Assembly (NCBI GenBank): GCA_937921995.1
Contig: CAKZVF010000106.1
Span: 1-44,020 of the forward strand
Direction of reading: 5' to 3'
Source of the DNA: an uncultured Pirellulaceae bacterium
Lineage (GTDB): Bacteria; Planctomycetota; Planctomycetia; Pirellulales; Pirellulaceae
DNA: 44,020 nucleotides
This document shows, piece by piece, positions 2,190 through 31,097 of this stretch. Numbering within the stretch: position 1 is the stretch's first letter; the number at the start of each line of letters is the position of its first letter. Under the pieces are notes generated by a model. The model saw nothing but the letters and a program-made list of their open reading frames with translations. It had not been told where the DNA came from and did no database searches. The translations under genes and the position numbers were made by a program.

Positions 2190-2281
2190 GATGTTGGTTC
2201 TCCAGGAAAAGGAATTATTCAATGACAGGACGATTTGTTGGGCAAGCCTCCTGCCAGGACTGCCTTTTTATTTGTTGTTGG

Positions 2282-3481: not shown

Positions 3482-3561
3482 AGTAATATCCACATCGCAA
3501 GGAATTTTTCGCCGTCCAATAAGAAAAGAACCGTCTATCAAGGTTCGTCGTTCTAGCGGGC

Positions 3562-9425: not shown

Positions 9426-9740
9426 ATTTCTTCGGTCGCTTTGGCTGAGTTAGTAGCGCGAGGCAAAAACTGGCAAGCCTTGCCATATTTGCGGGTTGTG
9501 AGGCGCAGAGAGATACCTGTGCAAGCAGTTCAGTTGAGCGATCCCATAAAGCCCTCTGCTTCTCAATTACCTGCCGCAACGCCTTCAAACATGAGAAGGT
9601 GGAAATATGGCGATCGTTTATCGGGTTGAAAATCAGTTAGTTCTAACAACCAAATTGAGTATGGCTGGCTTGAACTGGTTGTGAAGACGAAAAAGAGTAA
9701 TATGAGTAAGAGGCTATTTTTGTTAGCTTAGGTTGAATTG
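9426..9740. other. Intergenic region before the electron-transfer cluster
   Basis: This 315-bp gap separates the flippase from the reductase at 9741 and probably carries the promoter of the electron-transfer operon. ACAACCA at 9646-9652 and TGGTTGT at 9676-9682 form a perfect 7-bp inverted repeat with a 23-nt spacer about 60-95 bp before the start, a possible operator. A 62-codon open frame at 9441-9629 has no ribosome site and no recognisable features, so I do not call it. No clear terminator was seen after the flippase. Confidence 0.4.
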
Positions 9741-11006: not shown

Positions 11007-11088
11007 ATCTAGACAATGGGTGTTCCGCTCCCCTAGGTGCAGCGTTTGAGCATGCCCGAAATATTTCTCTTTCTATCTATCTCTGAAG

Positions 11089-12189
11089 ATGCGCAAACAA
11101 CCACATTTGAAATCCGCTTTGACAACCATTTTCTTTCTAGGGTTATGCCCGCTGGTCTACAGCCAACAAACAACGCCTCCAGAAAAGGTGGTTGGCCGTG
11201 ATCAATGCGCTCAGTGCCACGTAAGCGAAACCAAGGCTTGGGAAAAGTCATCCCACAACTTGCAGGCATGGAGTCTGCTCGAACATACCAAAGCTGCAGA
11301 ATTCGCTAAAGCGATTGGAGTAACCAACATTATGGGCGATTCAGCCTGTACAAAATGTCATGGCACCCATCAATCGGTCGATGGTCAGCTGGCTGTGTTG
11401 AAAGGAAATTCGTGCGAGTCTTGTCATGGTGGTGCTGGCGGGACCAACGGCTGGTTGAAGACTCACTACGATTTCGGAGTTGGCGGGGAGGTGGCAAGCT
11501 CAAAGACAATGGTGGCTTTGTTGGAAGATCGACTTAAGGAAACGCCCGAACATCGCTCGCAACGCGATGCCAGTTGCGAGCAGTCAGGAATGATTCGTTC
11601 GAATGATCCTGTTGGAATCGCGCGCAACTGCCTGAACTGTCACTTGGTACCCAACGAGGCTCTGATTAAGGCTGGGCATCCAATCAGTTCAAAATTCGAC
11701 TTGGTGGAGTGGCTTGGCGGAGAGGTTCGCCACAATTTTTTACTCACCCCTGACAAGAATTCCGAAGCGCCCACGAATTGGACTGATGCGTTTCGAAATG
11801 GCGAGGAGCGTACAGCGACGGCGCGAAAACGTTTGCTGCACGTTGCGGGGAAGCTGGCCGATTTAGAAATCAGCTTGCGGCTCCGAGCCACCGTTACCTC
11901 GGTGAAGCGTGGAACTTTAGGAGATGAATTAAACGATCGAATTGATGATCTACAAGATGACTTGGGTGATTTAGAGATCGCGAGTTTAGAGCCTGTACTT
12001 GAAGCAGCCAAAGTAGCAAGCAAACGAACTTTAAAGAAGATTCAGGATAACGACAAAGCAACATACACCACAATCGCAGACAACGTTGCCGCTGCGACAG
12101 CAACATTTATTAGAGCAGATCCATCTGGAAGCAAGCTTCCCGATATAAAGATACGCGACAAGGTGATCGGCGAAGTATACGGCAATTAG
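11089..12189 (+). CDS. Periplasmic tetraheme cytochrome c554-like protein (copy 1)
   Basis: A 366-residue exported protein with a signal peptide ending near VYSQQ (residues 1-25). Four CxxCH heme sites begin at Cys40, Cys87, Cys109 and Cys181, and the first is followed by the ETKAWEKSSH pattern characteristic of the cytochrome c554/c-prime family. The second half is helical, charged and heme-free, about residues 230-366. In ammonia oxidisers c554 takes electrons from hydroxylamine oxidoreductase; no such enzyme is here, so only a general electron-relay role is supported. It begins 82 bp after the reductase and is followed by a paralogue with the same heme order. Confidence 0.85.
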   Translation: MRKQPHLKSALTTIFFLGLCPLVYSQQTTPPEKVVGRDQCAQCHVSETKAWEKSSHNLQAWSLLEHTKAAEFAKAIGVTNIMGDSACTKCHGTHQSVDGQLAVLKGNSCESCHGGAGGTNGWLKTHYDFGVGGEVASSKTMVALLEDRLKETPEHRSQRDASCEQSGMIRSNDPVGIARNCLNCHLVPNEALIKAGHPISSKFDLVEWLGGEVRHNFLLTPDKNSEAPTNWTDAFRNGEERTATARKRLLHVAGKLADLEISLRLRATVTSVKRGTLGDELNDRIDDLQDDLGDLEIASLEPVLEAAKVASKRTLKKIQDNDKATYTTIADNVAAATATFIRADPSGSKLPDIKIRDKVIGEVYGN

Positions 12190-12272
12190 GACGTTGTCGT
12201 TCTGGCCATTTTTTTCTGGGTTGGTTCGGGATTGCTGTTGAAATGGAACGGTCGAGCATGGAAGGAACGATT

Positions 12273-13691
12273 ATGCAGCTCAATGAATCAAACAAGCACC
12301 GGTGGGTGATCAGCGCATCAACGCTCAATGCTGTGTTTTGTCTGATTGTAATTTTCATTGCGGCGATCATTGGAGGCTTGCCTGCCAAGGCTTACGCTTG
12401 GATTGTTCCTGCTTTTCACATTCTCCAGGAGGAAGATGAAGACGAAGCTGACAAGAAAACGGCTGAGCAAAAGCTCGAAGAGCAAGAGGAACAACGTCAC
12501 AAAGAAATCAAGAAGGCCGAGGCTAAAGCTGAGTTGCTTATCCAACGCGATCAAACCCAACTACGTACCAAGTGGCACAATGCGGGTTGCATGGCCGGCA
12601 ACCGGCAGTGCATAGATTGCCACGAACAAGAAGTTAGAGCATGGAAGAAATCTAAGCACGCGACTCGAGCGTTTGATCTCTTGCGAACATCCGAAAGTGC
12701 TTTGGAGTACGCCAAAAAGCTGGACATTCGTCCCATCGACATCACCCGTTCGGCACTTTGCATCAACTGCCATGGGACACAAGAAACCAAGCATAATGGG
12801 CGAGTAACGGTGTTTGCTGGTGTCTCATGTGAATCTTGCCACGGGCAGTCGCTAGGAGAACAAGGCTGGCTAAACGCACACGGTGTCTATGGAGCGGCTC
12901 ATACGTTAAGAGAGCATGAAACATACGAACATTATTCTCAACGACAGCTGCGTATTGAAAACGCGGGTTTGCGGCGGTCGAGCAATTTGTATGCGATGAC
13001 CAAACGTTGCTACGATTGCCATGTGCTGGGTGACGAAGCACTATCTAAAGCCGGCCATGCACATGGTGAAGGATTCGAAATGGTGGCCAAGTCGTTAGGG
13101 GAAGTCCGCCACAACTTTGCCCTGAACGAACACGTAAACGAGAAAGCGGCTTCTTTATGGTTGGATCCGTTTCGGCATGGCCAAGGGCGGAGCGTGACCG
13201 GCCGGTTAAGAGTCATGTTTTTGCTTGGACAGATGGTCGACTTAGAAGTCTCGCTGCGAAATTTGGCACGCGCATCTGAAGAGAACGATTTCTCGGACGC
13301 AATGTGCAGTCGAATCGAAGATGCTTATGAATTGTTGGCTGAGGATGTGGTTGAAGAAATTGATGAGATGGACGAAGAAAAGGCTGAGGAAGCAGGTAAT
13401 TCATCGATTCTTGATCGTCCTGAATTTACCGAGATCAAAGCTGTTATTGCGGTTGTGGAACCGATCTGGGAAAAGCTTGACGACGACGGATTCAACAAAG
13501 AGGAAGCTTCGTTGTACATTCAAGCGGCTGACGCAATTGCGATTGAAGCAATTCGGTTTGGGAAACGCAACGGAAATCAATTAGGCGCGATTGACGAGCT
13601 GGAGTTGTTGCCTGAAGACTACTTTGACGGGGCTTATGATCCCAGATTTCCCGATGGCAAGCCACAGGGTTTGGAATCGGAAACCGAGTAA
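12273..13691 (+). CDS. Membrane-anchored tetraheme cytochrome c554-like protein (copy 2)
   Basis: A 472-residue paralogue of the preceding cytochrome. An N-terminal hydrophobic helix (about residues 12-40) anchors or exports it, then a highly charged Glu/Lys/Arg segment of about 45 residues, probably a coiled-coil spacer, leads into four CxxCH sites at Cys113, Cys163, Cys186 and Cys246. The first is again followed by a c554-like REVRAWKKSKH-type pattern (here EVRAWKKSKH). Like copy 1 it has a heme-free helical tail, with the similar segments FRHGQGRSVTGRLR here and FRNGEERTATARKR there. Three in-frame ATGs exist (12243, 12258, 12273); the last has AAGGA 7 nt upstream and is chosen. The long charged spacer could hold the hemes away from the inner membrane. 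Confidence 0.84.
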   Translation: MQLNESNKHRWVISASTLNAVFCLIVIFIAAIIGGLPAKAYAWIVPAFHILQEEDEDEADKKTAEQKLEEQEEQRHKEIKKAEAKAELLIQRDQTQLRTKWHNAGCMAGNRQCIDCHEQEVRAWKKSKHATRAFDLLRTSESALEYAKKLDIRPIDITRSALCINCHGTQETKHNGRVTVFAGVSCESCHGQSLGEQGWLNAHGVYGAAHTLREHETYEHYSQRQLRIENAGLRRSSNLYAMTKRCYDCHVLGDEALSKAGHAHGEGFEMVAKSLGEVRHNFALNEHVNEKAASLWLDPFRHGQGRSVTGRLRVMFLLGQMVDLEVSLRNLARASEENDFSDAMCSRIEDAYELLAEDVVEEIDEMDEEKAEEAGNSSILDRPEFTEIKAVIAVVEPIWEKLDDDGFNKEEASLYIQAADAIAIEAIRFGKRNGNQLGAIDELELLPEDYFDGAYDPRFPDGKPQGLESETE

Positions 13692-13748
13692 GTCCCGGAG
13701 GCTTACGCAATTCCACTACATTCAATTAGCGCCACCTGGTTTACTGTA

Positions 13749-15446
13749 ATGCGGAAAAACCTAATTCGACGTCCAGAACGCTGGGCCATTCCCTTTTCGG
13801 ATAAGATGGGGGATTCGGAAGTTAATGAACTGATGGCCGCTGCCCCGTTCAAAGATCTCGATTTGAAGAACTTTTCCGGCCGCGTAAACCCGCGCGGAAT
13901 TCTGCGAAATGATGCTAGGTTAACATCGTACGAGCGCGGCGAGATTGTGGTTCGCCAAGGCGACTGGGGGAATTCGGCTTTCTTCGTTCTCTCGGGTAGC
14001 CTTCGCGCGGACTTGGAATCGACCGGTGATTCATCGACGGCGCTGCGGGGTCAACAGAAACCGAAAAGAAAAAATCTCTTTCAATTGATGGCACAGGTGT
14101 TCAATGGACAGCTGGGACCGGAAGTCCGTGACGTGCGAACCTACGAAAACAATCAAGGCATCTCCGGGCAACAGAGTGGAAAACAAACACGAATATTCCT
14201 ACCCGATTTTGCTACTGTGTTGAAAGAAGAACGAACCGCAACGATTGAAGCCGGGCAGTTTTTTGGCGAACTTTCGGCCCTTGGGCGAACACCTCGCCAA
14301 GCCACAGTAGTTGCCGATCAGGCGACACGATTGCTAGAGATTCGCTGGCAAGGCTTGCGAGACTTAATGCGTGGTGATCCTGGTATTCGGGCTCACATCG
14401 ACACGGTTTTCAGGGAACGCGCGTTGAAATGGTTTTTGCTCAACACGCCTATTTTCAGCCATTTGAATGAAGCTCAGCTGGAACGTCTGGTCGAAGCAGC
14501 GGAATTCGAGACTTACGGGAAGTACGACTGGGCCGCATCGTTCAAACGGCTTGCTCGAAAAAACGATCCGCGAAAACAGGATTCCACGCTAGAACCGTTA
14601 ATCGCCAAAGAGGGCGATCACCCCAACGGCGTCCTAATCGTGCGCAGTGGCCTGGCTCGGGTGACCAAAAAATTTGAAAATGGGCATCGGACCGTCGGGT
14701 ATTTGGGACCGGGCCATGTGTTTGGTATGGAAGAGATCGAAGCAAGCTGGCAAAAACGAAACCCAGGCCAACTAAAGCATTCAATGCGCGCAATAGGAAT
14801 TGCTACGGTAGTGGTAATACCAACACGCGTCGTTGAAGAATTACTACTGGACAAGAAACCGCTGAAGCGCCGACCCGACCCGCGATCGACCGAGCCGTTT
14901 GAGAAAATCAACGAGGACTTCATTGAATTTCTCGTTGAGAAGCGATACGTCAATGGAACCGCAACCATGTTGATCGACATGGATCGTTGTACGCGTTGCG
15001 ACGATTGTGTGAAGGCATGTGCGAGCACTCACGACAACAATCCAAGATTTTCGCGTACTGGCCCAATTCAGAACAACGTCATGGTTACCGGAGCTTGCAT
15101 GCACTGCGAGGATCCGGTTTGCATGATCGAATGTCCAACCGGTGCGATCCATCGGGATATTTCTCAAGGAACGGTCGTCATCAATGACCAAACTTGTATT
15201 GGTTGCAGTGCGTGTTCTAATAACTGTCCCTTTGGTGCGATCCGAATGGTCGAAATCCGTCATCCAGACGGAAGTTATATTCGGGACTCAGAATCCCAAC
15301 TTCCGATCGTAAAAGCAACGAAGTGTGATTTGTGTTTTGATCAACTGGGCGGACCGGCGTGTCAAAGGGCATGCCCTCATGGAGCGATGGTGCGCATGGA
15401 CATGGGCGATACCCATCAGCTTGCTCAATGGCTTAAGACAGACTGA
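13749..15446 (+). CDS. Cyclic-nucleotide-binding / four-cluster [4Fe-4S] fusion protein
   Basis: A 565-residue soluble, cytoplasmic-looking protein. Residues about 40-215 form a cyclic-nucleotide-binding domain split by a roughly 60-residue insertion; its phosphate-binding cassette FGELSALGRTPRQATVV keeps the Glu and Arg that contact cAMP/cGMP in this family. A second, degenerate domain follows (about 230-370, FGMEEIEASW). From Cys414 on come four Cys4 sets (CTRCDDC...C, CMHCEDPVC...C, CIGCSAC...C, CDLC...C...C), the four-cubane pattern of HybA/NrfC/DmsB-type electron-transfer subunits. The stop is 8 bp before the membrane cytochrome b gene, so the two are probably partners: a cubane subunit with a quinone-reacting membrane subunit. 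The sensory domains suggest ligand control of electron flow. A transcriptional role is unlikely, since no helix-turn-helix is seen. Confidence 0.87.
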   Translation: MRKNLIRRPERWAIPFSDKMGDSEVNELMAAAPFKDLDLKNFSGRVNPRGILRNDARLTSYERGEIVVRQGDWGNSAFFVLSGSLRADLESTGDSSTALRGQQKPKRKNLFQLMAQVFNGQLGPEVRDVRTYENNQGISGQQSGKQTRIFLPDFATVLKEERTATIEAGQFFGELSALGRTPRQATVVADQATRLLEIRWQGLRDLMRGDPGIRAHIDTVFRERALKWFLLNTPIFSHLNEAQLERLVEAAEFETYGKYDWAASFKRLARKNDPRKQDSTLEPLIAKEGDHPNGVLIVRSGLARVTKKFENGHRTVGYLGPGHVFGMEEIEASWQKRNPGQLKHSMRAIGIATVVVIPTRVVEELLLDKKPLKRRPDPRSTEPFEKINEDFIEFLVEKRYVNGTATMLIDMDRCTRCDDCVKACASTHDNNPRFSRTGPIQNNVMVTGACMHCEDPVCMIECPTGAIHRDISQGTVVINDQTCIGCSACSNNCPFGAIRMVEIRHPDGSYIRDSESQLPIVKATKCDLCFDQLGGPACQRACPHGAMVRMDMGDTHQLAQWLKTD

Positions 15447-15454
15447 CAGGTGAG

Positions 15455-16279
15455 ATGAACTGGCGAAGCAGGAAGCGAATGTTAGGCGGGCTATTGCTGG
15501 CTATCCTAAGCGTAGGAACGTGGTTCTTTTTTCGCTTGCTGGATATTGCCCTGCTGCCGATTGCTACGTACTCAGGGCTGCTTCTGTATGCTGTGCTTTT
15601 CTTCCTGACCGGATACAGCTTACGCAAGAAGATACGTTTCTTGCCGCTGGGGTCGTCTGAGCTGTGGTTGCAGATTCATATTTTTTCGGGCCTGTTTTCA
15701 GGTGTACTATTTGGGATTCATTTGTGTTGGCATTTACCAAGGGGGGGTTTTGAAATTGCTTTGGCCTCAATCTATTTGTTAACGTTTCTAAGCGGCGTTG
15801 TTGGCTGGGTTCTGTCACGTGAATTGGCAAAACGCCTGACCACACGCGGCGGCGAAGTCTTATTCGAAAAGATTCCCAGAGAATTGTATTTGATTCGCGA
15901 AGACGTAAAAGAATTGGTCCAACAGTGTGCCAACCAGACCAACTCATCGGCGATTTCTGATTTCTACCGAAATCGTTTGCGGAGCTTTTTCACGCGACCC
16001 AGACATGTCCTTTCTCACTTGATTCAATCCACTCGGCCGCGATCAAGCCTGCTGCGTGAACTCAACGACTTTCAACGCTATGTAAATGATTTTGAGCGCG
16101 AAACGTTGGAAGGAATTGCGGTCGCGATCCGCCGCAAAGACAGTTTGGATTACCAGTACGCGTTGCAGTTGGCGTTGAAGTCTTGGCTATTTGTGCACGT
16201 TCCCGTTTCATGTGCTCTTCTTATCTTCTCTACCGTTCACATGTTGTTAGTCTTTGCTTTCTCGCGAGGGATCGGATGA
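15455..16279 (+). CDS. Predicted di-heme membrane cytochrome b subunit
   Basis: A 274-residue integral membrane protein with about five hydrophobic segments: roughly 12-36, 40-56, 70-93, 100-120 and 240-268. Two of these carry paired histidines spaced by 14 residues, His75/His89 (plus His93) and His248/His262, the spacing by which two helices of b-type cytochromes hold two stacked hemes. Between the membrane halves is a basic 115-residue loop with no Cys. I do not recognise a precise family; cytochrome b561/NrfD-like quinone-reacting subunits are the nearest idea. Its stop overlaps the ATG of the decaheme gene (ATGA, 16276-16279), and the iron-sulfur fusion gene ends 8 bp upstream, so the three products are probably made together as one membrane complex. 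Confidence 0.7.
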   Translation: MNWRSRKRMLGGLLLAILSVGTWFFFRLLDIALLPIATYSGLLLYAVLFFLTGYSLRKKIRFLPLGSSELWLQIHIFSGLFSGVLFGIHLCWHLPRGGFEIALASIYLLTFLSGVVGWVLSRELAKRLTTRGGEVLFEKIPRELYLIREDVKELVQQCANQTNSSAISDFYRNRLRSFFTRPRHVLSHLIQSTRPRSSLLRELNDFQRYVNDFERETLEGIAVAIRRKDSLDYQYALQLALKSWLFVHVPVSCALLIFSTVHMLLVFAFSRGIG

Positions 16280-18420
16280 ATGAGGTTCAACCAGGTGACC
16301 AGGTTTTCCCAGACCGCGACTATGAGCGGCCTAATCAAGTCTGGCGTTGTGGGAATTCAGGAGATGGTGGATGCCCATGTACGCTTGGTCCAACCCGAAC
16401 AGGGCAATGCCAAGCAAGTTTTCAATGTCAACCAGGCAAATCCGGTGACAGTTGGATTTGCACACGGGCTGCTTCTATTGGGGGGCGATGTGCTGAGGGA
16501 CCGCTGCCCGATGGAAAGTGCTGCCGAGAGTTCACGCCCTGCATTCCTGTTCGAAACGTGGTCAGCTGGCGGCGTCAAGTAACGATATTCACGGCCGCCG
16601 CATCGGTTGGCATGGTTTGTTTGTTGATGGCATTTCCTGCTCGCACCGGACTTATTTCGCCGGGGCCACTGACGCATCAACATGCAGCGACTCCCAATGG
16701 ATGTATCGACTGTCATAGTGCGGCGGAGCAAGACGTTGGCGGCTGGACTTTGGTAGCGGCAAGCCCTCATGCCAACCACCTGGAGACGCAAAAATGCTTG
16801 GTTTGCCACCACGATTTCGGAGAAAACCCCAACAAGCCGCACTCTTCAAGCGCTCAGCAGATCGCCCAGCTAACAAAGACTGCTCATAACCGAGCAGTAC
16901 AAACTAAGGAAGAAAACGGTCCGGCGGTGCGAGACTGGATGACTTCGCTGTCCAAATCAATGGTCGGGACGGCGCACCTCCATGGTGACTTGGATTGTGC
17001 GGCATGCCATAAAGAACATCAGGGGGAAGAAGCCGACCTAAAATTGTTGACCAATCAACAGTGCCAAGTTTGCCATGTAAGTTCGTTTGCAAGTTTCTCC
17101 CAAGGACATCCGGAATTTGATCAATATCCATTTCAGCGCCGAACAAGAATCTATTTTGATCACTCAACACACTTCAATAAGCACTTTCATGAACATGCAT
17201 CAGCGGACAAGGATTCGGCTCGAGGTTTTAATACCCAAGCCGCGTGTGTCCAATGCCACGTTGTCGACGCGAAAGGCGTGACGATGGAGTTACGCCCGTT
17301 TGAACAGACTTGTGCACAATGCCATGAGAAACAAATCACCGACGACTCAACAATCGGTTGGGCAGCAATTGGGGTTCCCGCGATTGATCGAGCAGGAATG
17401 GGCGCCGATGAAGTCGGAGTTGGATTGTGGCCTGAATCAACGCCGCTACACCCACAAGCTTCTGGTGCGTTGCCACCATTGATGAAACTATTACTATCTG
17501 CTGACTCAAAATTTGAACAGATACGTCCTCAAGTAGAGAATTTGAATCTTGCTGATTTGAAGAATGCATCGGCGGATGTCTTGACCGCTGTTGAGGACCT
17601 GGCCTGGGTGCTAAAACACAACATTCTTGCCTGGAGCCAAGGCAAGTATCTGCCACCTACCACTGGCAAGTCGACGGCGGGGCAGTTGGCGCATAATGAA
17701 ATAAAAACAATATTGGATTTGATACCGACTGCTCAGTTCAAACAGATCCAAGATCGTTGGTTTCCTGTTTTAAAAAAAGAGATTCGCTCTAGGAAAACGG
17801 GCCAAGGTTTTGAGTTTGCGAGCCGAGTCGATGATCGTGATCTCAATCAAATCTCTCAAGACCAGCGACGTGATGTAGAGACAATCAAAAGTGGGTGGTA
17901 TTTGCAAGATACAGATCTAACCTTGCGATACCGTCCCGTTGGACACGCAGATCCAGTTTTAAAGAAACTGCTCGATTCCGTTGCTCATCTCGCCAGCAAT
18001 TCAAATGACAAACGTCGTACTGCGTTGATTAATGAGGTGCTAAGTGATGTTTCATCGCCTCATGCACCAGGCCGATGCGTAAAGTGCCACACGATTGATC
18101 GTAGTGATAAAGAGGTCGTCATAAATTGGCGCGGAGTGGTAGCGAATCAAAATCATGCGTTCACCAAATTTTCACACAAATCTCATATGGTAACACAGGC
18201 CAACAACGAGTGCTTAGAATGTCATCGCTTGAAAGAAAGGCATGACAGCGAAAGCTTCTTTCGGGCCGAGTACGTAAACCAATGGGGATGTCTGGCCTTA
18301 GACTCGGCCAAATTCAAATGTGACTTTTCTCCATTGCAGAAATCCAATTGCAGCCAGTGTCACCAGCAAAACTCTGCGGGTGACAGTTGCCTTAAATGCC
18401 ACAACTATCATGTCCGATGA
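16276..18420 (+). CDS. Decaheme cytochrome c with cytoplasmic Cys-rich domain
   Basis: A 714-residue protein starting at the ATG that overlaps the previous stop; a longer frame back to 16183 lies within the upstream gene. Residues 1-95 have no signal peptide but contain ten cysteines (25, 33, 35, 45, 51, 62, 72, 82, 83, 89) with the patterns CPCTLGPTRTGQC, WICTR, GGRC and DGKCC, suggesting a metal or Fe-S site. A membrane helix at about 102-121 follows, and then ten CxxCH sites from Cys143 to Cys705, in groups of two, four, and four more after a heme-free stretch of about 250 residues. Topology predicts the Cys-rich domain in the cytoplasm and the hemes in the periplasm, so one chain could carry electrons across the inner membrane region. 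Relation to cytochrome c3/c7 families is likely for the heme modules. Confidence 0.85.
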   Translation: MNEVQPGDQVFPDRDYERPNQVWRCGNSGDGGCPCTLGPTRTGQCQASFQCQPGKSGDSWICTRAASIGGRCAEGPLPDGKCCREFTPCIPVRNVVSWRRQVTIFTAAASVGMVCLLMAFPARTGLISPGPLTHQHAATPNGCIDCHSAAEQDVGGWTLVAASPHANHLETQKCLVCHHDFGENPNKPHSSSAQQIAQLTKTAHNRAVQTKEENGPAVRDWMTSLSKSMVGTAHLHGDLDCAACHKEHQGEEADLKLLTNQQCQVCHVSSFASFSQGHPEFDQYPFQRRTRIYFDHSTHFNKHFHEHASADKDSARGFNTQAACVQCHVVDAKGVTMELRPFEQTCAQCHEKQITDDSTIGWAAIGVPAIDRAGMGADEVGVGLWPESTPLHPQASGALPPLMKLLLSADSKFEQIRPQVENLNLADLKNASADVLTAVEDLAWVLKHNILAWSQGKYLPPTTGKSTAGQLAHNEIKTILDLIPTAQFKQIQDRWFPVLKKEIRSRKTGQGFEFASRVDDRDLNQISQDQRRDVETIKSGWYLQDTDLTLRYRPVGHADPVLKKLLDSVAHLASNSNDKRRTALINEVLSDVSSPHAPGRCVKCHTIDRSDKEVVINWRGVVANQNHAFTKFSHKSHMVTQANNECLECHRLKERHDSESFFRAEYVNQWGCLALDSAKFKCDFSPLQKSNCSQCHQQNSAGDSCLKCHNYHVR

Positions 18421-18637
18421 GCAAACTAAAGAAGATTTGCCGTTGGAATATCAAGCTTTAATCAACAGGAAATTCGATATTGTTGATGCTTGACCCGTTA
18501 GACTGGGGAGGCATGGCGAACTTTGAGGACGGCCCGGAACTGTTCGCGATCGGCATAAGCAGATCAAGTGGATTTTTCACTAAAACCCGACGATACGTAA
18601 CAATCGTTGTATCTTTCGAGAGTTAGTGGAACAGATT
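18421..18637. other. Spacer inside the cytochrome cluster with a doubtful small frame
   Basis: This 217-bp spacer is the only sizeable gap between 11 and 23 kb and may hold a second promoter for the last two genes. A 46-codon open frame (ATG 18486, stop 18624-18626) fills much of it and ends just before the next gene. It lacks a ribosome site and has no cysteines, heme motif or membrane segment, so I do not call it a gene. No strong palindrome was found. Confidence 0.35.
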
Positions 18638-20974
18638 ATGCGTCTGTCGTCAAAATCTTTGTTGGGTAAGAAGTGGCTTTACGCCATCGTTGTAGCGGGA
18701 TTTCTACATGGATTCTGCGTATCTAGCGTTTTCGCGCAATTACGGTCTGTTGGTGACGGCTCTCTTATAAATGCCGACCTAGACACCGGACAGGAACCAG
18801 ATTTCTGGGCAAACGTGTTTGGCAAGCATGATGCAATTGCTATCGCCAACTTGGCCCATCAAGACGCTGAAGTGGTTTCCGATATCGGTACCCGTGAGCT
18901 GCGAGTTGACAGAGTTTGTCAGGCAGCGCAAGACGAGATTGCCAAGCGAGGCATGACTCAAGCGGTCAATCAAGCCGTTTATAAAGTTGATCCAACTCAA
19001 CGGAAAGAGGTTGGTCTAATTGACCATCAAAGTCAATCGGCTAACGTATCGTCTTCGCGTGCACCTGCACACTTAAAACAGGTTGGCTTCAGCCCGCCAT
19101 CACCTACCGCCACTGCCAAAAGCAATTCTCAGGTTACCGATCTGAAAGAGATAGAGGTGGCCGATTTGAGGCTTGATGCCAAACAGTTCGGCCTCCAAGA
19201 AAGCCACAGTGCAAGTGTCCCCGGTCATCAAACTAATGACTATAGAGAGGTGAAACAGCTGGCAGTGGATAATATCCACGCCAACTGCTTCAACGATGTG
19301 ACCTTTCCCTCGGCCGCAAAATGCAAATCGTGCCATCCAGACCATTATAGAGAATGGTCTGTCTCTCCACATGCTTATGCTCAGCTGAGTCCAGTATTCA
19401 ACGCGATGTCTAATAAGTTGAATAAGCTAACAAACGGGACGCTGAGCGATTTCTGTATTCGCTGTCATGCTCCAATCGGGATGGCTCGCGGAACTGAGAT
19501 TTCCAAAAGCAACTTGGATCGTCCTCCCGAAGAACGTGAAGGAGTTTCTTGCGTTGTTTGTCATCGCGTTAACCAGAACTGGGGCAAAGTATCAGGTCGC
19601 CAAGCTTTGGTGGGCGGCGGCTTAGACAAACCTGTTTACGGACCGTTTGGAAACGAAATTCTGCAACAAGCGTTATCTGATCCGGATAAGTACGGCGTAA
19701 TGACATCAGGCCCTAAGGATTCAAGAATCAAGAGTAGAGAAGTACACTCGGATTCCGTCCCATTTTTCGCTTTGACGACTTCTGCTACATGTGGCAGTTG
19801 TCATGATGTATTTGGCCCCGATGGATTCCGGTTGGAAGACGCATTCAGCGAGTTCAAGTCTTCTCCAGCAGCCAAAGTAAAAGGTCAAAACTGCCAAGAC
19901 TGTCACATGGGCAAGACGCCGGGCGTAGCTTCGGGCTACGCGCATGCTCCTGCGGCCATCGTAGGAAACCAATGTACTCCTGTGCGAAAACATACCAATC
20001 ATATGATGATTGGACCTGACTATTCAGTTATTCATCCCGGCTTGTTTCCGCACAACCCAGAAGCCATTCGTGAGGAACATACTCCGCCAGATGATTTGAA
20101 AGCAGGTCTGGCAACGATGCGCCAATGGCTGCAGTTTGACCATCAATCCGGTTGGGGAACGGACGATTTCGAACGCAAGCTCAGCAAGGGGTTTCGTTTC
20201 CCTCCTGCCTGGGAAAACCAGCAGAAGCGATTTGACGCACGGGAAATCCTAGTAGATCAGTTTGAGTTACTTAAAGAGGCGGATGTCGCAAGGCATCAAT
20301 TGTTGAGCGCTGGCTATAAGTTGGGAGACGTTCAGTTCCTGGGGCGCAACTACAAGGGACTGAATTTCCGAATCAAAGTATCCAATGGGACCGATGGACA
20401 CGGAGTTCCAACTGGGTTTGATGCCGAACGCCTCGTCTTTTTGCGGATAGTCGTGCGGGACTCACAAGGGAAGATCGTAATGGTATCAGGGGGGCTCGAC
20501 CCAAATGGCGACGTGCTTGACAGGCATTCAGTCTATGTCCACAACGGAGAACTGCCGCTTGATCGGCAACTGTTTTCTTTGCAAACAAAGTTTATGACTC
20601 GAAATGTACGGGGCGGTGAACGTGAGCAGGTTCTCGCTGTCCCGTTTTCACTTGATCCGCTGCCCTTTGCACGTCCAGCAACTCGGCCATTCACCGTTCT
20701 AGGACGCCCTGTTGGTGCACGAAAGCACAAGCAAAACATCGAAGTCGGTGGGCATCGCTGGGCCAACTATACGATTGGAAGGAAGCAACTGACCGGAAAT
20801 GGTCCTTATCACGCGGATGTCCAATTGATCGCAGCGATGGTTCCGGTCAATTTGATTCACGCCGTTTCCTCCGCGGGTTTTGACTATGGGATGTCAGCCA
20901 AACAAATTGCGGACGAAGTGGTCAAAGGGCACGTGGTCGTTCACACCAGACACGCGGTGATCGATGCCAAATAA
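18638..20974 (+). CDS. Exported pentaheme cytochrome with large C-terminal domain
   Basis: A 778-residue exported protein. The signal peptide covers about residues 1-34 (ends VFAQ). Five CxxCH sites begin at Cys229, Cys273, Cys305, Cys385 and Cys419; the first is followed by HYREWSVSPHA, the c554-type pattern. About 190 residues of polar N-terminal linker precede the hemes. The last 250 residues are heme-free and include NGTDGHGVPTGFDAERL, a motif I have seen in the C-terminal beta-domain of large c554-like proteins. The ATG at 18638 (GGA 9 nt upstream) is preferred to the GTG at 18626. The gene overlaps the beta-barrel gene by 11 bp, so the pair is co-translated and may form a porin-cytochrome unit. 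Catalytic activity on a small oxyanion is another possibility. Confidence 0.83.
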   Translation: MRLSSKSLLGKKWLYAIVVAGFLHGFCVSSVFAQLRSVGDGSLINADLDTGQEPDFWANVFGKHDAIAIANLAHQDAEVVSDIGTRELRVDRVCQAAQDEIAKRGMTQAVNQAVYKVDPTQRKEVGLIDHQSQSANVSSSRAPAHLKQVGFSPPSPTATAKSNSQVTDLKEIEVADLRLDAKQFGLQESHSASVPGHQTNDYREVKQLAVDNIHANCFNDVTFPSAAKCKSCHPDHYREWSVSPHAYAQLSPVFNAMSNKLNKLTNGTLSDFCIRCHAPIGMARGTEISKSNLDRPPEEREGVSCVVCHRVNQNWGKVSGRQALVGGGLDKPVYGPFGNEILQQALSDPDKYGVMTSGPKDSRIKSREVHSDSVPFFALTTSATCGSCHDVFGPDGFRLEDAFSEFKSSPAAKVKGQNCQDCHMGKTPGVASGYAHAPAAIVGNQCTPVRKHTNHMMIGPDYSVIHPGLFPHNPEAIREEHTPPDDLKAGLATMRQWLQFDHQSGWGTDDFERKLSKGFRFPPAWENQQKRFDAREILVDQFELLKEADVARHQLLSAGYKLGDVQFLGRNYKGLNFRIKVSNGTDGHGVPTGFDAERLVFLRIVVRDSQGKIVMVSGGLDPNGDVLDRHSVYVHNGELPLDRQLFSLQTKFMTRNVRGGEREQVLAVPFSLDPLPFARPATRPFTVLGRPVGARKHKQNIEVGGHRWANYTIGRKQLTGNGPYHADVQLIAAMVPVNLIHAVSSAGFDYGMSAKQIADEVVKGHVVVHTRHAVIDAK

Positions 20975-22832
20975 TACAAAAACAAACAGCATTGCCGTGA
21001 TGAAACTGTTTGTTGTGACTTGCCTCATGGTCACATTTGGCAATACAAGTACGTTATCCTCGCGCTTGGCCATCGCACAAACGAACAGCTATTTTGATAG
21101 CTCAGTGACGAACAACAACGTGTTTGGGGAAAGCTTGTTGAAGCCAGTTTGGCAAGACAGGCTGGATACGGTTGCACTCGTTTCTTGGGATTCATCGAAG
21201 CAAGTCAATGATTTCATTGCTGTCTTGCAACAGCCGACATCCGAGACGCTGTCAATCGCCGACACTACTGTCAGCAATGTCGCTCCTCCCACCCAAACGT
21301 CTACGCTCGCGCCTACGGGCGATCGCGAGGACGAAACGGCGGGTGCGACGACCAAAGGTCTTTACGTCTCCCCTGCGGAACTAGCCGGTCTCGAAACAAA
21401 CGCTCCTCAATGGGCCCGACGAATTGAGTTCCTACCAACATTGCTGTCCGGGAGTCAGGAGAGATTGGGGTGTGTACTGGGCAACATTTTCAGAATGGAA
21501 CACGACCACGTCACCCTGGGTTTGGATGATTATTCGATTGGAATTCAACCGGTTCCGCCACGTCCGAAACTATTGTACGAATTCAACGAGAAGTTTCTGG
21601 AGCCCGGATACTTGAATCAAGGGATTGAAACAAGAACGGGTGCCGTCTGGCGTCCATCTATTTGGGTGTTTGGCGAGTATCGTGCATCGTTCTCTTATTT
21701 CGATCGAGATCGCTCGAACGACACGGTTGCAGAACAAGTAAACCGTTTGGATTTGTTCGCCCAACTAAATCTCACTGCGACTGAACGTGTCTTGCTTGGC
21801 TTGCGGCCTCTGGACAAAGAATCTAGCGGAAGCCGTCAGTTTACGGGGTACAATTTCAACAACGGAAGAATCCTCGACGGTCTCAACGCGAGGGTCCAGA
21901 CGCTGTTTTTCGAAGGCGACTTTGGCGAAATTTTTCCATGGCTGGATCCTTATGATTCACGTGGCTTGGATTTTGGATTCTCCATTGGACGTATGCCCCT
22001 GCTGGCTCAACAGGGCCTATTGATCAATGAAGACGCGATCGATGCGTTAACCATCACACGCAATACACTGAACGGAAATGGAAACCTGAATTTGAGAATA
22101 ACTGGCGTGTTTTCATGGCGTGGCATCAACCGCAACAGCGCAACGGGGAGAGCGAATGACTTTGATCCGGGTTCGAAAATGTTTGCCTTCTTGACCGAAA
22201 GCGACTTCGCAAAACGAACGGTTAATATGGACGTCGTGTACGTCGATGGGGACGAAGCGTTCGGAGATATGTTTGCGATGGGCGTCAGCTCAATTCGTCG
22301 ACATCACCTTTACGAAAACACTTACAACACTTCTTTACACTTTCTGACTTCCATTGCTGCTGGTGAAAAGACGGACTACTCCAACCAAGGCGAGTTGTTC
22401 TTCGCGCAGACTTCTTGGACGCCTCACAGCACCGAAGATTTGATTTACTTCAATTCATTCTGGGCCGTGGATCAGTTTACCTCTCCCGCACGCGGGCCCA
22501 ACAATGGATCGGCATTGGGCCAAACAGGAATCTTGATGGCCGGCCCCGATCTGGGAAACTACGGAGCACCTTTGGCTGTACGAACGGACGACCTCGTGGG
22601 GGCAAGTCTTGGCCGGCAGTTCTTCTTTGATCACACTCGCTCTCAAATCATCTTAGAGATGGGTGCAGCGCAGGAAACCAAAGGGGCATCCCGAGGGACG
22701 ATCGCGTCTGGTTTGCGGGTTCAAAAAGCGATGGGGCAACACTTGATCGGAGTGCTAGACGGTTTCGTCGGAAAGCAAGCGGGCGCACGAGTTTCCCAAG
22801 GGGTTCGTCTTGAGCTAAGGACCAAGTTTTGA
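20964..22832 (+). CDS. Predicted outer-membrane beta-barrel protein
   Basis: A 622-residue exported protein that I cannot assign to a named family. A hydrophobic stretch at about residues 14-38 (signal peptide ending near AIAQ) is followed by a low-complexity Ser/Thr-rich region to about 130. The remainder alternates polar and aromatic residues in short strands typical of outer-membrane barrels, with repeated Y/F at strand ends and a C-terminal Phe (LELRTKF). It has no CxxCH. The start overlaps the pentaheme gene by 11 bp; an ATG at 21000 would give a tighter signal peptide and is equally possible. By position it could be the sheath of a porin-cytochrome conduit. Against this, planctomycetes also have many unrelated barrel-like surface proteins. 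Confidence 0.65.
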   Translation: MPNNTKTNSIAVMKLFVVTCLMVTFGNTSTLSSRLAIAQTNSYFDSSVTNNNVFGESLLKPVWQDRLDTVALVSWDSSKQVNDFIAVLQQPTSETLSIADTTVSNVAPPTQTSTLAPTGDREDETAGATTKGLYVSPAELAGLETNAPQWARRIEFLPTLLSGSQERLGCVLGNIFRMEHDHVTLGLDDYSIGIQPVPPRPKLLYEFNEKFLEPGYLNQGIETRTGAVWRPSIWVFGEYRASFSYFDRDRSNDTVAEQVNRLDLFAQLNLTATERVLLGLRPLDKESSGSRQFTGYNFNNGRILDGLNARVQTLFFEGDFGEIFPWLDPYDSRGLDFGFSIGRMPLLAQQGLLINEDAIDALTITRNTLNGNGNLNLRITGVFSWRGINRNSATGRANDFDPGSKMFAFLTESDFAKRTVNMDVVYVDGDEAFGDMFAMGVSSIRRHHLYENTYNTSLHFLTSIAAGEKTDYSNQGELFFAQTSWTPHSTEDLIYFNSFWAVDQFTSPARGPNNGSALGQTGILMAGPDLGNYGAPLAVRTDDLVGASLGRQFFFDHTRSQIILEMGAAQETKGASRGTIASGLRVQKAMGQHLIGVLDGFVGKQAGARVSQGVRLELRTKF

Positions 22833-25909: not shown

Positions 25910-26071
25910 TTCGTGCAGACATCTGTGAACTGTTGGGTGACGTACCAAACGTCTGACTTGGGTCAATTCTTTGAGTTTTTGGGTAAGCTTTAACCGAAGC
26001 CTCGTGTCCCAATTCGTAAGCGGTTTGACTTGGAGCGGTTCCTTTTGCGAGTTTTGATGAAGGGAGTATTG

Positions 26072-27517
26072 ATGAATTCTACTACGGCCCCTCGGAGCCT
26101 GATCCACCGGTATGGTTTTCACGTCGCGCTGATCGTTGTGTCGACGGCCATCATTTTATTGGGTATCGTTGCGGTAGAAAGTTTTAATACACCCAAACAT
26201 GCGCACCCGGGACCGATAATGTTCCAGTCTGGTTTGACCGCTACGGAAGAACCAGAATTAGACGCTTACTTTCGGTTGACTGCGCGTGATGTTGCGGTCG
26301 TAAATGATTCGCTGAATAGAATTTCAGATCAATGGCATCCGGGTTCGGCGACGATGATGATCGAGATCGCTCGATTCGCCAAAAACGCCCGCGCCGTTGC
26401 GGAAATGATCTCCTTGATCGAAACCAAAACGGGTCAGAATTTCGGGAATGATTTTGAAAAATGGCGTCAGTGGATTTGGAAGCAAGAGTACGATCCTCAT
26501 CCGCAGTACGCCAAATTCAAGAGCGCCCTTTATTCAAAAATCGACCCGCGCTTCAGCGACTATTTCCGGGTCACCAAGGATTCGAAGATCCGTTTGGACG
26601 AAATCCGATGGGGAGGCGTTATGCGCGACGGAATTCCTCCGCTAAAGGATCCAAAAATGCTCGCAGCGGCCGATGCGGACTATCTTGCCGACACCGACGT
26701 TGTGTTTGGGGTCGAACTGAACGGTGATGCACGGTGCTACCCCAAGCGCATTTTGGCTTGGCATGAGATGTTCAAAGACACGATCGGTGGCGAATCCGTT
26801 TGTGGCGTTTACTGAACACTTTGCGGAGCGCTGATCGTGTATCAGACTGAAATTAATGGCAAACACTACGAATTAGGCACCAGTGGATTCCTGTACCGAT
26901 CCAACAAACTGATGTACGACCATGAAACCCAATCCTTTTGGTCAACGCTCAAAGGCGAACCTGTCGTTGGAGAACTGGTCGGAAAGGCTATTTCTCTTGA
27001 GCGCCGATACTGTGTCACCACGACTTGGGGCGATTGGAAACGTCAACATCCCAAGACGAAAGTCCTGTCTTTGGAAACAGGCCACAGAAGAAATTACGGG
27101 GAGGGTGTCGCCTACAACGCGTACTTTGGCACTGACAAACTGATGTTCACGGTGCCCGGCAAGGACAGCCGACTGTTGAACAAAGCGGAGGTTGTTGCAC
27201 TTCGAGATGACAAACAACAGCTCGCGATCTCAGCCGATTTTTTGCTCAAGCACCCGGTCTACAGCGACGTATTGGGCGACGACAAATTCGTTGTGTTGAC
27301 CAACTCGGCAGGGGCGAATCGAGTCTACCGAAGCGCTGGAATCACATTTAGGACTTGGGATGGCGTCAGCGTAGCGACCGACTCTGACGGGCAAAAATGG
27401 CGGGTTGCCGAAGACCAGCTGAGCTCCGGCTCGAAATCGCTGGATCGGATGCCATCCCACCGCGGGTTCTGGTTCGGCTGGCAAGCCCAGTATCCAGAAA
27501 CCCGGTTGGTAAAATAG
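26072..27517 (+). CDS. DUF3179 protein, probable selenoprotein (in-frame UGA)
   Basis: A DUF3179 protein of 481 residues if the TGA at 26813-26815 is read as an amino acid (position 248). The upstream part ends GGESVCGVY and the part after TGA, in the same frame, continues TLCGALIVYQ; family members normally have YCxLCG here, so UGA falls exactly on the first Cys of a conserved CxxC, giving UxxC. Conserved DUF3179 segments lie on both sides (NGDARCYPKRILAWHE before; GTSGFLYRSNKLMYD after), and codon quality does not change across it. The start at 26072 has GGGAG about 6 nt upstream; a membrane helix at about 13-35 suggests a periplasmic domain. The function of the family is unknown; UxxC suggests thiol redox chemistry. 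A nonsense mutation or sequencing error is the alternative. Confidence 0.82.
26813..26845 (+). promoter_or_regulatory. UGA codon with SECIS-like hairpin
   Basis: After the TGA (26813-26815) comes a 15-nt spacer and then a perfect 5-bp stem, CTGAT (26831-26835) with ATCAG (26841-26845), closed by the loop CGTGT (26836-26840). The apical loop starts 20 nt after the UGA and has G as its second base. These features fit the bacterial SECIS rules as I remember them: a hairpin in the coding frame, loop 16-37 nt from the UGA, and a G in the first two loop bases. The lower stem is weak, with only partial pairing around the spacer. Confidence 0.65.
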
Positions 27518-28076: not shown

Positions 28077-28640
28077 AACTCTCTCCTATTTAGATTGAAA
28101 ACGATCCGATAGCGCAAGAGCCACCGAAATAGAATTAACAAGACACTGGAGTCAGTTCGTTGGAGTCAGTTCGCAAAGGAACATTTCAACTGTAAGCGCC
28201 AATCGTGCTCTCTCCAAAGGAAATCCGGGCAGTCAATCAATAAAAAGGGGCTTGTGAATTTTGTCACAAACTTCCTCCGTGTTTTTGCGTAATGACAGCA
28301 CATAGAATTTGCGAAGAGACACTGACCATTACGACCAAAGCGTCATGCTTTGTGCTGCGAGTTCTCCGGGAGGTCAAGGCTCCATCGGAGACCTAAGATT
28401 CACGTTTGACGATTGCGAGCGGCACACAATTTTTCGATTGCGTGTGCGTGAACAGTTCAACCAACGGTAATCTACGGAGCATTGCCCAAGCAGGCCCGCA
28501 TGAAATTGCTCCTTCTCAGCCACTTCACAGAAAACGGATTGTCGCTCCTTTTCCCCCGTAGATCTTCAATTGTCTGTGTCTATATTGAATGGCGGATATC
28601 CTCTAACGATTTCACCCATGAATTTACACCGAGTACAACC
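28077..28640. other. Divergent intergenic region, CBS gene to haloperoxidase
   Basis: A 564-bp gap between divergent genes. It contains a CRP-like palindrome at 28252-28269 and a bulged hairpin at 28371-28394 (AGGT...ACCT outside, CTCC-ATC-GGAG inside) that could lie in the leader of the haloperoxidase transcript. The haloperoxidase frame remains open back to 28482, but that stretch lacks a signal-peptide pattern and a ribosome site, so I treat it as untranslated. I saw no other gene or RNA. Confidence 0.5.
28252..28269. promoter_or_regulatory. CRP/FNR-type palindrome TTGTGA-N6-TCACAA
   Basis: TTGTGA (28252-28257) and TCACAA (28264-28269) form a perfect palindrome with a 6-nt spacer, matching the core TGTGA-N6-TCACA of CRP sites exactly. 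It lies 176 bp before the CBS start and 372 bp before the haloperoxidase start, so either or both could be controlled. No CRP/FNR regulator is encoded in the window. Confidence 0.45.
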
Positions 28641-31097
28641 ATGCGACGCCGTTCAACAAAAACAACTGAATTTGGTTACGGCCAATTGGAAACGCGATCT
28701 ATGTTGGCCGGTCTTGTGACCGTTATTTTGGAGGACCAGGTTCTGACGGTCATTGGCGATCGCGAAACCAATGTTTTCTCCGTCGATCTGACCGCCGAAA
28801 CAACCGACCAACTGGTCCAAGGCCAATCCGACACCAACGTTTGGTTCGCGCGCGGTTTTGAAGACGGGTTGGATCTTGCAAACCTGCAAGACATCCGCAT
28901 CTACGCCAACAACGGCGACGACGTCGTCACGCTTTACGCAGAAGGATACAGCCTGCGGGATGACTTGATCATTTCGTTGGCACATGGCAACGATTCACTT
29001 TACGTCGTCGGGGGTACTGTCGAAGACGATGTTTCGATTTACGCCGGTAGCAACCATGATTCGATCTTCATCTCCGACCTTTACGTCGGCGACGATTTGT
29101 ACTTGGTCGGTAACGCGGGAACCGATGTGATGGCGCTCAATGGTGTCACCGTTGAAGACAACACACTTGGTCTAGGTCAGTTTGGGCACGATTCGGTGCT
29201 GGTGAACGATTCAACTTTTGGTGACGGTGTCTATTTTGAAATGGGGCAAGGGGCCGACCGTTACGAATCGATTGGCTCGGTTTACAACGACGTTGTTTCG
29301 ATCCGGGGCCGAGATGGATTTGATTCGGTTTTGCTGGACGCCGAAGCAAATACCTTTTCTAGAAATCCGCATCTGATCGCGGTCGACCGAGAGGCACAGA
29401 CAACTAATGAATTCGGTTTGGATGCTGTTGCAATTGATCAGCTCAAAACTGACTTTTTTGAGTTCGGTAATGAGATTCCGCTCGTTACGGCCAACGCTGT
29501 TCAAGACGGTCTGTCTGAACTGGCATCCGTGTTCGACGTGGCCCTGTTCACACTGATACTGGACGAAGATGCTCAGACGGTATCCGTGGAAGATCCTACC
29601 CAGACCGTTTCAGCGGTTTGGGACGTCGCGGTACAGGCGGCCGTGATCGCAACCGGGCCCGGACCAACGATTGCTTCTCGCGCCTACGCGATGATGCACA
29701 CGGCGATGTACGATGCTTGGTCGGCCTATGACAGCGTTGCGATTTCAACCAACCTTGGCGATGACCTCCAGCGTCCGGATTCTGAGAACACCGAAGCCAA
29801 CAAAACCAAAGCGATGAGTTTTGCCGCGTATCGCGTCTTGGATGATCTGTTTTCGACGCAAACTGAAATTTTCGAAAACGTAATGGAGCAGTTTGGTTTT
29901 GATCCAACCGACACCAGCACCGATACGACGACCGCGACAGGCATTGGCAATCGGATGGCAAGTGAGTTACTGACTGTTCGCCACGCCGACGGTTCCAATC
30001 AATTGGGTGATGCTGCTACGGGAACCGCAGGCGTCGCTTATTCGGACACCACTGGATACACGCCGATCAACCCCACCGGAGATCCCATCGACATCCAAAG
30101 ATGGACGCCTGAGTTCGTTCCCGTAGATGCCGTCCCCGGGGAAGAAAATGCGATTCAACGATTCCTGACTCCACAATGGGGCACGGTTGCCGCATTTGGA
30201 TTTGAAGACGCAAACGATTTTCTCCCTGAGGCTCCTCAGCCATTTCTCTTGGTTGACGGCACGACCGATTTGGACGCGCAGACGATCACCTTAGCCGATG
30301 GCACTGTTTTGAACATCGATAAGAGCCTAATAGGAACTGTGATCAACCCCGAATTCATCAGCCAAGCCAAGGAGGTGGTTGAGTTTAGCGCGAACCTAAC
30401 CGACGAAGAAAAAATCATCGCCGAGTTCTGGGAAGACGGCGGCGGCACCTCGTTTCCACCGGGAACAACGATGACTTTTGGACAGTTTGTTTCCGCCCGC
30501 GATAACCATTCCACCGATGAAGACGCAAAATTATTCTTTGCCCTTGGTAACGCCGTGTTCGATGCGGGCGTGGCGACGTGGAATGCAAAAGTTGTTTACG
30601 ACTACGTGCGTCCGGTTCGCGCGATTCGCGAGCTGGGGGAACTGGGATTGATTGGCGAGTTCGACGCCGATTTGGGGGGTTTTGCGATTGACGCTTGGGT
30701 ACCCAACAACGGTACGCAAACGATTTTGGCGACTGACTTCTTGACGTATCAGCTACCTGGCGGCAACGTGTCGCCTCCATTTGCCGAATATACATCCGGT
30801 CACAGCGCTTTCAGTGCCTCAGGAGCAACCGTTCTTCAATTGTTCACCGGCAGCGACGAATTTGGAGGTTCGGTTACCTTCTCTGCCGGCAGTGCCGTGT
30901 TCGAAGACGCCACTCCCTTGGAAGATGTGACGCTGTCATGGGATACCTTCTCCGCGGCGGCTGACGAAGCCGGGTTGTCAAGGCTCTACGGCGGCATTCA
31001 CTTCACCGAGGGCGACGTAAACGGCCGGACGTTGGGCGAAGATGTCGGCGATGCCGCTTACGAACAGGCGCTGTTCTACATCAACGGTGGCGTCTAA
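28641..31097 (+). CDS. Secreted vanadium-dependent haloperoxidase
   Basis: An 818-residue protein. It begins with a planctomycete sorting-like segment (YGQLETRSMLAG), then about 230 residues of Asp/Gly-rich strand repeats (GNDSLYVVGG, GSNHDSIFISD, GTDVMALNGV) resembling a surface beta-helix, then a vanadium haloperoxidase/PAP2 domain from about residue 310 to the end. Every vanadate ligand of the fungal chloroperoxidase has a counterpart at the same spacing: Lys650 and Arg657 (7 apart), Ser719-Gly720-His721, and Arg781 with His787 (6 apart). The enzyme would oxidise halides with hydrogen peroxide outside the cell, a reaction known in marine organisms; a phosphatase activity is the alternative for this fold. 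The ATG at 28641 is chosen because it directly precedes the basic and LExR segments. Confidence 0.87.
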   Translation: MRRRSTKTTEFGYGQLETRSMLAGLVTVILEDQVLTVIGDRETNVFSVDLTAETTDQLVQGQSDTNVWFARGFEDGLDLANLQDIRIYANNGDDVVTLYAEGYSLRDDLIISLAHGNDSLYVVGGTVEDDVSIYAGSNHDSIFISDLYVGDDLYLVGNAGTDVMALNGVTVEDNTLGLGQFGHDSVLVNDSTFGDGVYFEMGQGADRYESIGSVYNDVVSIRGRDGFDSVLLDAEANTFSRNPHLIAVDREAQTTNEFGLDAVAIDQLKTDFFEFGNEIPLVTANAVQDGLSELASVFDVALFTLILDEDAQTVSVEDPTQTVSAVWDVAVQAAVIATGPGPTIASRAYAMMHTAMYDAWSAYDSVAISTNLGDDLQRPDSENTEANKTKAMSFAAYRVLDDLFSTQTEIFENVMEQFGFDPTDTSTDTTTATGIGNRMASELLTVRHADGSNQLGDAATGTAGVAYSDTTGYTPINPTGDPIDIQRWTPEFVPVDAVPGEENAIQRFLTPQWGTVAAFGFEDANDFLPEAPQPFLLVDGTTDLDAQTITLADGTVLNIDKSLIGTVINPEFISQAKEVVEFSANLTDEEKIIAEFWEDGGGTSFPPGTTMTFGQFVSARDNHSTDEDAKLFFALGNAVFDAGVATWNAKVVYDYVRPVRAIRELGELGLIGEFDADLGGFAIDAWVPNNGTQTILATDFLTYQLPGGNVSPPFAEYTSGHSAFSASGATVLQLFTGSDEFGGSVTFSAGSAVFEDATPLEDVTLSWDTFSAAADEAGLSRLYGGIHFTEGDVNGRTLGEDVGDAAYEQALFYINGGV

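Follow-up and report, generated by a model that had tools for sequence, protein, structure and literature searches.

An uncultured Pirellulaceae bacterium carries, on the 44,020-nucleotide stretch analysed here (contig CAKZVF010000106.1, called the window below), a gene that adds a new, well-supported member to DUF3179, a family already known as predicted selenoproteins, and comparison with related sequences indicates that its in-frame UGA codon is almost certainly read as selenocysteine (Sec). The best overall explanation is a DUF3179 selenoprotein that is probably anchored to the membrane and likely uses Sec as its redox centre. The original prediction had also put DUF3179 forward as a selenoprotein family not described before. 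This claim of novelty fails, since the family already stands in published lists of predicted selenoproteins. The table of a 2022 review (PMC9312934) contains a "DUF3179 domain-containing protein" (pfam11376, motif UxxC/T) as a predicted selenoprotein, and its row cites reference 63 of that review, a 2007 paper on the symbionts of Olavius algarvensis. A 2026 review (PMC13188914) lists PF11376, again with UxxC/T, in a table row that stands after the heading "Predicted with high confidence" and gives one Sec per protein. In addition, a paper on Idiomarina has a DUF3179 gene as a mere table entry, and the candidate list of a paper on planctomycete selenoproteins (PMC4807772) may include the family. 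The motif of the window protein is UTLC, and in a comparison of table entries alone the published DUF3179 selenoproteins share with it both the Pfam family and a Sec in UxxC. They differ in that the relatives of the window protein also show UxxE, UxxG and UxxA, and the string "Planctomycet" is absent from the main text of both reviews. Our literature search found no experimental work on any DUF3179 protein.

The reading frame and its UGA codon

The TGA is in frame with the ATG and the TAG that bound the gene (Table 1), and the sequence AAGGGAG stands at 26060-26066, ahead of the ATG. When the TGA is read through, the product is one DUF3179 protein that matches PF11376 from end to end (profile positions 1-292 of 292; E 1.9e-75; 254.5 bits against a gathering score of 27), as had been expected from the two in-frame parts. 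No NCBIfam family matched the protein at E 0.001. Its nearest named relatives come from "uncultured Pirellulaceae" and Mariniblastus sp. bins, and the 77% complete genome bin of the host yielded a single DUF3179 match. A hydrophobic stretch near the N-terminus, recognized by eye, suggests a membrane anchor.

Table 1 Features of the DUF3179 gene and its predicted product in the window
Feature	Position	Strand	Details
Predicted DUF3179 selenoprotein gene	26072..27517	+	481 residues, Sec = residue 248; start ATG 26072, stop TAG 27515-27517
N-terminal segment with hydrophobic stretch, probable signal anchor	26072..26186	+	Translation read by eye
N-terminal all-helical domain (modelled)	26252..26566	+	AlphaFold2 helices between residues 25 and 129; model mean pLDDT 90.4
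Sec-bearing beta domain, modelled alone	26585..27097	+	pLDDT 87.1; Rieske-like by Foldseek, E not significant
Pfam DUF3179 match	26624..27502	+	Profile search
His of WHE motif, 17 residues before Sec	26762..26764	+	Opposite first-Rieske-loop His in a weak profile alignment
UGA codon, predicted to be read as Sec	26813..26815	+	Cys or TGA at the column in 80/80 best named relatives
Second Cys of UxxC, possible resolving Cys	26822..26824	+	Invariant in 48 alignment rows; absent from some family members
Apical hairpin CUGAU-CGUGU-AUCAG within the coding sequence, resembling a bacterial SECIS	26831..26845	+	Register and covariation tests

The TGA sits at the first Cys of a YCxLCG motif. Among the best 80 of 276 named relatives, this column holds Cys (TGC or TGT) in 71 and TGA in nine, with nothing else, which bears out the proposal that UGA replaces the first Cys of Y-C-x-L-C-G. 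Within the bacterial family of the window, TGA occurs at the Sec column at 59 places, distributed over 46 of 241 genomes, and 58 of the 60 loci flagged with an in-frame TGA (the window included) have it at exactly this column. The two exceptions are L099, which is unaligned at the column, and L062 (+ strand), which has Cys at the Sec column and, seven columns earlier, an in-frame TGA that may reflect a sequencing error or a decayed gene. A further DUF3179 frame, L092 (- strand), contains two in-frame TGA codons, of which the first lies 30 columns ahead of the usual column and the second occupies it.

Translation with the standard code (table 11) yields two open pieces, 26030-26815 and 26837-27517, the second of which has a GTG start, as would suit a real stop codon in a pseudogene, an error of sequencing or assembly, or a pair of separate polypeptides. 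However, the differences between the window and its relatives keep a coding pattern past the TGA (for example, 43, 29 and 124 differences at codon positions 1, 2 and 3 against L047), and those from eight relatives concentrate at third codon positions on both sides of the TGA, indicating that the downstream part behaves as translated sequence. Together with the recurrence of the same TGA across 46 genomes of the family and nine named records, and with the covarying hairpin described below, this makes a real stop extremely improbable.

The in-frame UGA alone does not discriminate between Sec and an ordinary amino acid inserted after a change of code or by suppression. The latter reading has next to no probability, given that table 11 leaves the long frames of the window open, that relatives have Cys at the column, and that the Sec machinery sought in the host genome is present throughout: selA (585 bits), selB (361 bits), selD (273 bits) and tRNA-Sec (selC; 63 bits, anticodon tca). 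The host bin is 77% complete with 5.35% contamination, so that sel genes on its other contigs could in principle be foreign, but the pattern across the 46 genomes argues against this. In these genomes, selA exceeded the cut-off in 42 of 46, versus 78 of the 195 others (Fisher p 6e-11). Three of the four TGA genomes without selA have tRNA-Sec above the gathering score of a model that is not fully specific, as 5 of 14 control genomes also pass it, and one of the three has selB above the cut-off as well. The fourth, G141 (71% complete), is the sole TGA genome in which selA, tRNA-Sec and selB all stayed below the cut-off.

The hairpin downstream of the UGA

A bacterial SECIS element is a hairpin just downstream of the UGA with a G in its apical loop. 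In the window, the hairpin CTGAT-cgtgt-ATCAG begins 15 nt after the UGA, and its loop, CGUGU, includes the G. The folding energy of this region is average (z -0.17 and 0.42 in two runs) and taken alone gives no support for a SECIS; the minimum-energy fold of the region differs from the proposed hairpin, which on its own amounts to -2.0 kcal/mol. The decisive evidence for the predicted hairpin is its covariation across relatives and not the thermodynamics of the single sequence. The 59 TGA rows comprise 56 distinct sequences, in which 239 of the 280 stem cells are Watson-Crick pairs, compared with 167.4 +/- 7.2 (maximum 193) after reshuffling of the 3' arms, and none of 2000 permutations reached 239. 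The two arms vary together, as in CTGAT/ATCAG, GGCAT/ATGCC, GGCGT/ACGTC, CTCGT/ACGAG, GCGAT/ATCGC and GCCGT/ACGGC, and the loop is CGTGT in 43 of the 56 sequences. The initial assignment of this hairpin as a bacterial SECIS is thus sustained by covariation, not by folding energy.

The pairing is also specific to the Sec forms. In the window's register, 86% of the cells pair in the 59 TGA forms versus 31% in the 50 Cys forms, and in the other registers tried at most 52% of the cells in the TGA forms are paired. Five TGA forms (L054, L055, L056, L101 and L102; three UIIC and two UAVC) are unpaired in the exact window register, and these have a 7-bp stem with the same start and a shorter loop. 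In an Akkermansiaceae locus outside the planctomycetes (L151, 20-1279, + strand; Verrucomicrobiota), which has TGA at the column, no stem was found in the planctomycete register; its genome has selA. An Rfam search of the window returned nothing at gathering scores.

Sec and Cys across the DUF3179 family

The genomes of the window's bacterial family provided 189 aligned segments, with Sec at the column in 59, Cys in 50, and another residue or a gap in 80. Almost all of the last group (73 of 80) are second repeats and tails of frames that carry Cys or Sec elsewhere, and the rest consist of one further frame of L100 together with L099, L117 and L127. The DUF3179 frames of L117 and L127 (both - strand) have Ser (L117) and Asp or Tyr (L127) at the column, so that a few family members lack the site; they are possible cases of a lost redox site. 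In many DUF3179 proteins, the C-terminal half can be aligned with the first, suggesting an internal duplication in the family. In L075 (about 2118-4271, - strand), a single frame contains two tandem Sec domains (UHLC), each followed by a second repeat that has neither Cys nor Sec.

We had started from the proposal of a thiol/selenol redox pair in UxxC. The window protein does have both residues, whose action as a redox pair has indirect support, but the family as a whole does not: the 59 Sec forms comprise 50 UxxC, six UxxE, and one each of UxxG, UxxA and UxxT, and CxxC accounts for 48 of the 50 Cys forms. Nine of the 59 Sec forms and two of the 50 Cys forms thus lack the second Cys, which excludes a UxxC pair as the mechanism of the family at large. 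Apart from the Sec column, where invariance is not evidence because the 28 domain rows were picked for Cys or Sec, the columns D112, W119, G129 and L138 (domain numbering) are invariant in these rows. In 65 of the 109 sequences, a His precedes Sec/Cys by 17 residues; of the remaining 44, 36 have a His one or four residues after it.

On the family tree, Sec forms alternate with Cys forms. The tree of 125 domain sequences needs eight changes between Cys and Sec, an approximate figure from a quick tree that leaves 46 of its 120 inner branches open and was built with the columns around Sec included, and its starred branches force at least three, indicating that Sec was not a single event. The group of the window consists of nine Sec sequences of one genus, placed among Cys relatives. 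The Cys proteins of the YCTLCG type are 51-63% identical to the window protein over the core, and those of the YCPLC type 35-43% identical over the Sec-bearing domain (six rows); they differ from it in having Cys instead of Sec and in lacking the hairpin register.

Fold, possible partners and proposed chemistry

The AlphaFold2 model of the window protein, built with 48 rows, reached pLDDT 90.4 and pTM 0.87, and consists of a helical N-terminal domain and a beta-rich DUF3179 part. It differs from thioredoxin-fold UxxC selenoproteins in being beta-rich around Sec, and no thioredoxin appeared among the best 50 of 532 fold matches of the full-length model or the best 50 of 188 of the Sec domain. 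The full-length model had no match among solved structures at E <= 0.001; ranks 1-16 of that search, which include seven Rieske oxygenases, were not relied on, at a probability of at most 0.28 and a query TM of at most 0.14. A profile search with E up to 1 found no solved structure related by sequence. The four best Foldseek matches of the Sec domain are all Rieske proteins, 1fqt (probability 0.89), 2e4p (0.92), 5cxm (0.87) and 3dqy (0.85), with E 0.11-0.33. When 8hn2 (0.85) is included, the E values span 0.11-0.44 and the TM-scores on the target 0.48-0.59, so the beta fold resembles that of Rieske-type ferredoxins and Rieske iron-sulfur proteins by Foldseek probability, but below the usual limits of significance.

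In Rieske proteins, the [2Fe-2S] cluster is bound by C-x-H and C-x-x-H in two loops, and both motifs are visible in the Rieske sequences that we used for profile alignment. The set C-x-H...C-x-x-H is absent from the DUF3179 domain alignment, which makes the Rieske likeness a lead rather than a membership. Aligned by hhalign with 31 Rieske sequences from the host and its relatives, DUF3179 gave a weak match (probability 2.7%, P-value 0.017), and shuffled Rieske profiles reached its score in 1, 3 and 3 of 100 cases at three block sizes. The default alignment stops at WHE, whose His faces that of the first Rieske ligand loop; Sec comes to stand opposite the second-loop His, three places past the Rieske Cys, in the permissive alignment alone. 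As a tentative view, less probable than not, DUF3179 may derive from a Rieske protein that lost its [2Fe-2S] cluster and in which a Cys/Sec redox site arose from the region of the second ligand loop, with Cys and Sec exchanged several times within one planctomycete family.

The main rival to a selenol redox centre is a metal site on the same Rieske-like scaffold, in which DUF3179 would likewise descend from a Rieske-type domain, the WHE and YUxxC loops would bind a metal or a modified cluster, and Sec or Cys, as a ligand, would tune an electron-transfer site. The Rieske proteins of several families that head the structural matches (probability 0.85-0.92) are in its favour, as are the His of WHE opposite that of the first ligand loop, with a score matched by so few shuffles, and a His at -17, or at +1 or +4, of Sec/Cys in 101 of 109 sequences. 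These His positions, however, track few subfamilies and are not independent, the E values, target TM-scores and hhalign probability are those given above, and the confident alignment ends at WHE, so that Sec faces the second-loop His in the permissive alignment only. With the Rieske ligand set absent as well, we regard a metal-ligand role as rather unlikely.

In the explanation that we favour, SelB with Sec-tRNA reads the UGA as Sec, helped by the in-frame hairpin, at a position where close relatives keep Cys. The protein is in all likelihood exported, and the N-terminal anchor would probably hold it at the membrane. In the Sec-bearing domain, where His, Asp and Arg are conserved in sequence, Sec would serve as a selenol(ate) redox centre that reacts with a substrate and then forms a selenenylsulfide, either with the second Cys or, in relatives without it, with the thiol of a partner. 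Thioredoxin-like proteins would re-reduce the Sec centre. The redox role is inferred from the exchange of Cys and Sec and from the DUF1223 fusion described next; we consider selenol redox catalysis somewhat probable, and a thioredoxin-like partner a plausible suggestion that falls short of this.

The fusion is found in genome G121 of the same genus, in which a 741-codon frame (L046, 169-2394, + strand) joins DUF1223, a thioredoxin-like domain (E 5.3e-61), to a DUF3179 selenoprotein. We also looked for a conserved operon in clusters from the 80 named loci and in the nearest genes of 55 of them, and no strong partner emerged. Among 47 adjacent co-directional genes, selected by hand on strand and distance out of the 205 genes nearest to these 55 loci, Thioredoxin_7 occurs in four and DUF547 in two. 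No thioredoxin family appears among the 25 families listed of 83 for 47 distal control genes, which were the first 47 of 60 drawn, from either strand and not strand-matched. The thioredoxin and DUF547 neighbours are too few to carry weight, and the neighbourhood signal is weak. The second largest neighbour cluster was set aside as antisense frames over the DUF3179 gene itself, produced by the simple gene caller, and several others as coming from closely related loci of the Gemmatimonadota type.

Elsewhere in the window, the region 9738-22832 (+ strand) encodes several multihaem c-type cytochromes (Cytochrome_C554, with weak MtrC/MtrF-like matches), a flavin/ferredoxin reductase-like gene and a cyclic-nucleotide-binding/FeS-like gene (both recognized by eye), and a 622-residue protein without a Pfam match that may be an outer-membrane barrel. 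This cluster looks like an electron conduit. At 28482-31097 (+ strand), a gene combines a vanadium-chloroperoxidase-like second domain (VCPO_2nd, E 7e-16) with DUF6851.

The standard code splits genes such as this one into two fragments, so the family is easily missed. In the bacterial family of the window, Sec use in DUF3179 is common (46 of 241 genomes) and has changed more than once, and some members do without the second Cys, which restricts the chemistry that can be considered. Should the Rieske-like fold prove real, structural work on the family would have a starting point, and the fold of a metal-cluster protein would have been turned into a selenol site.
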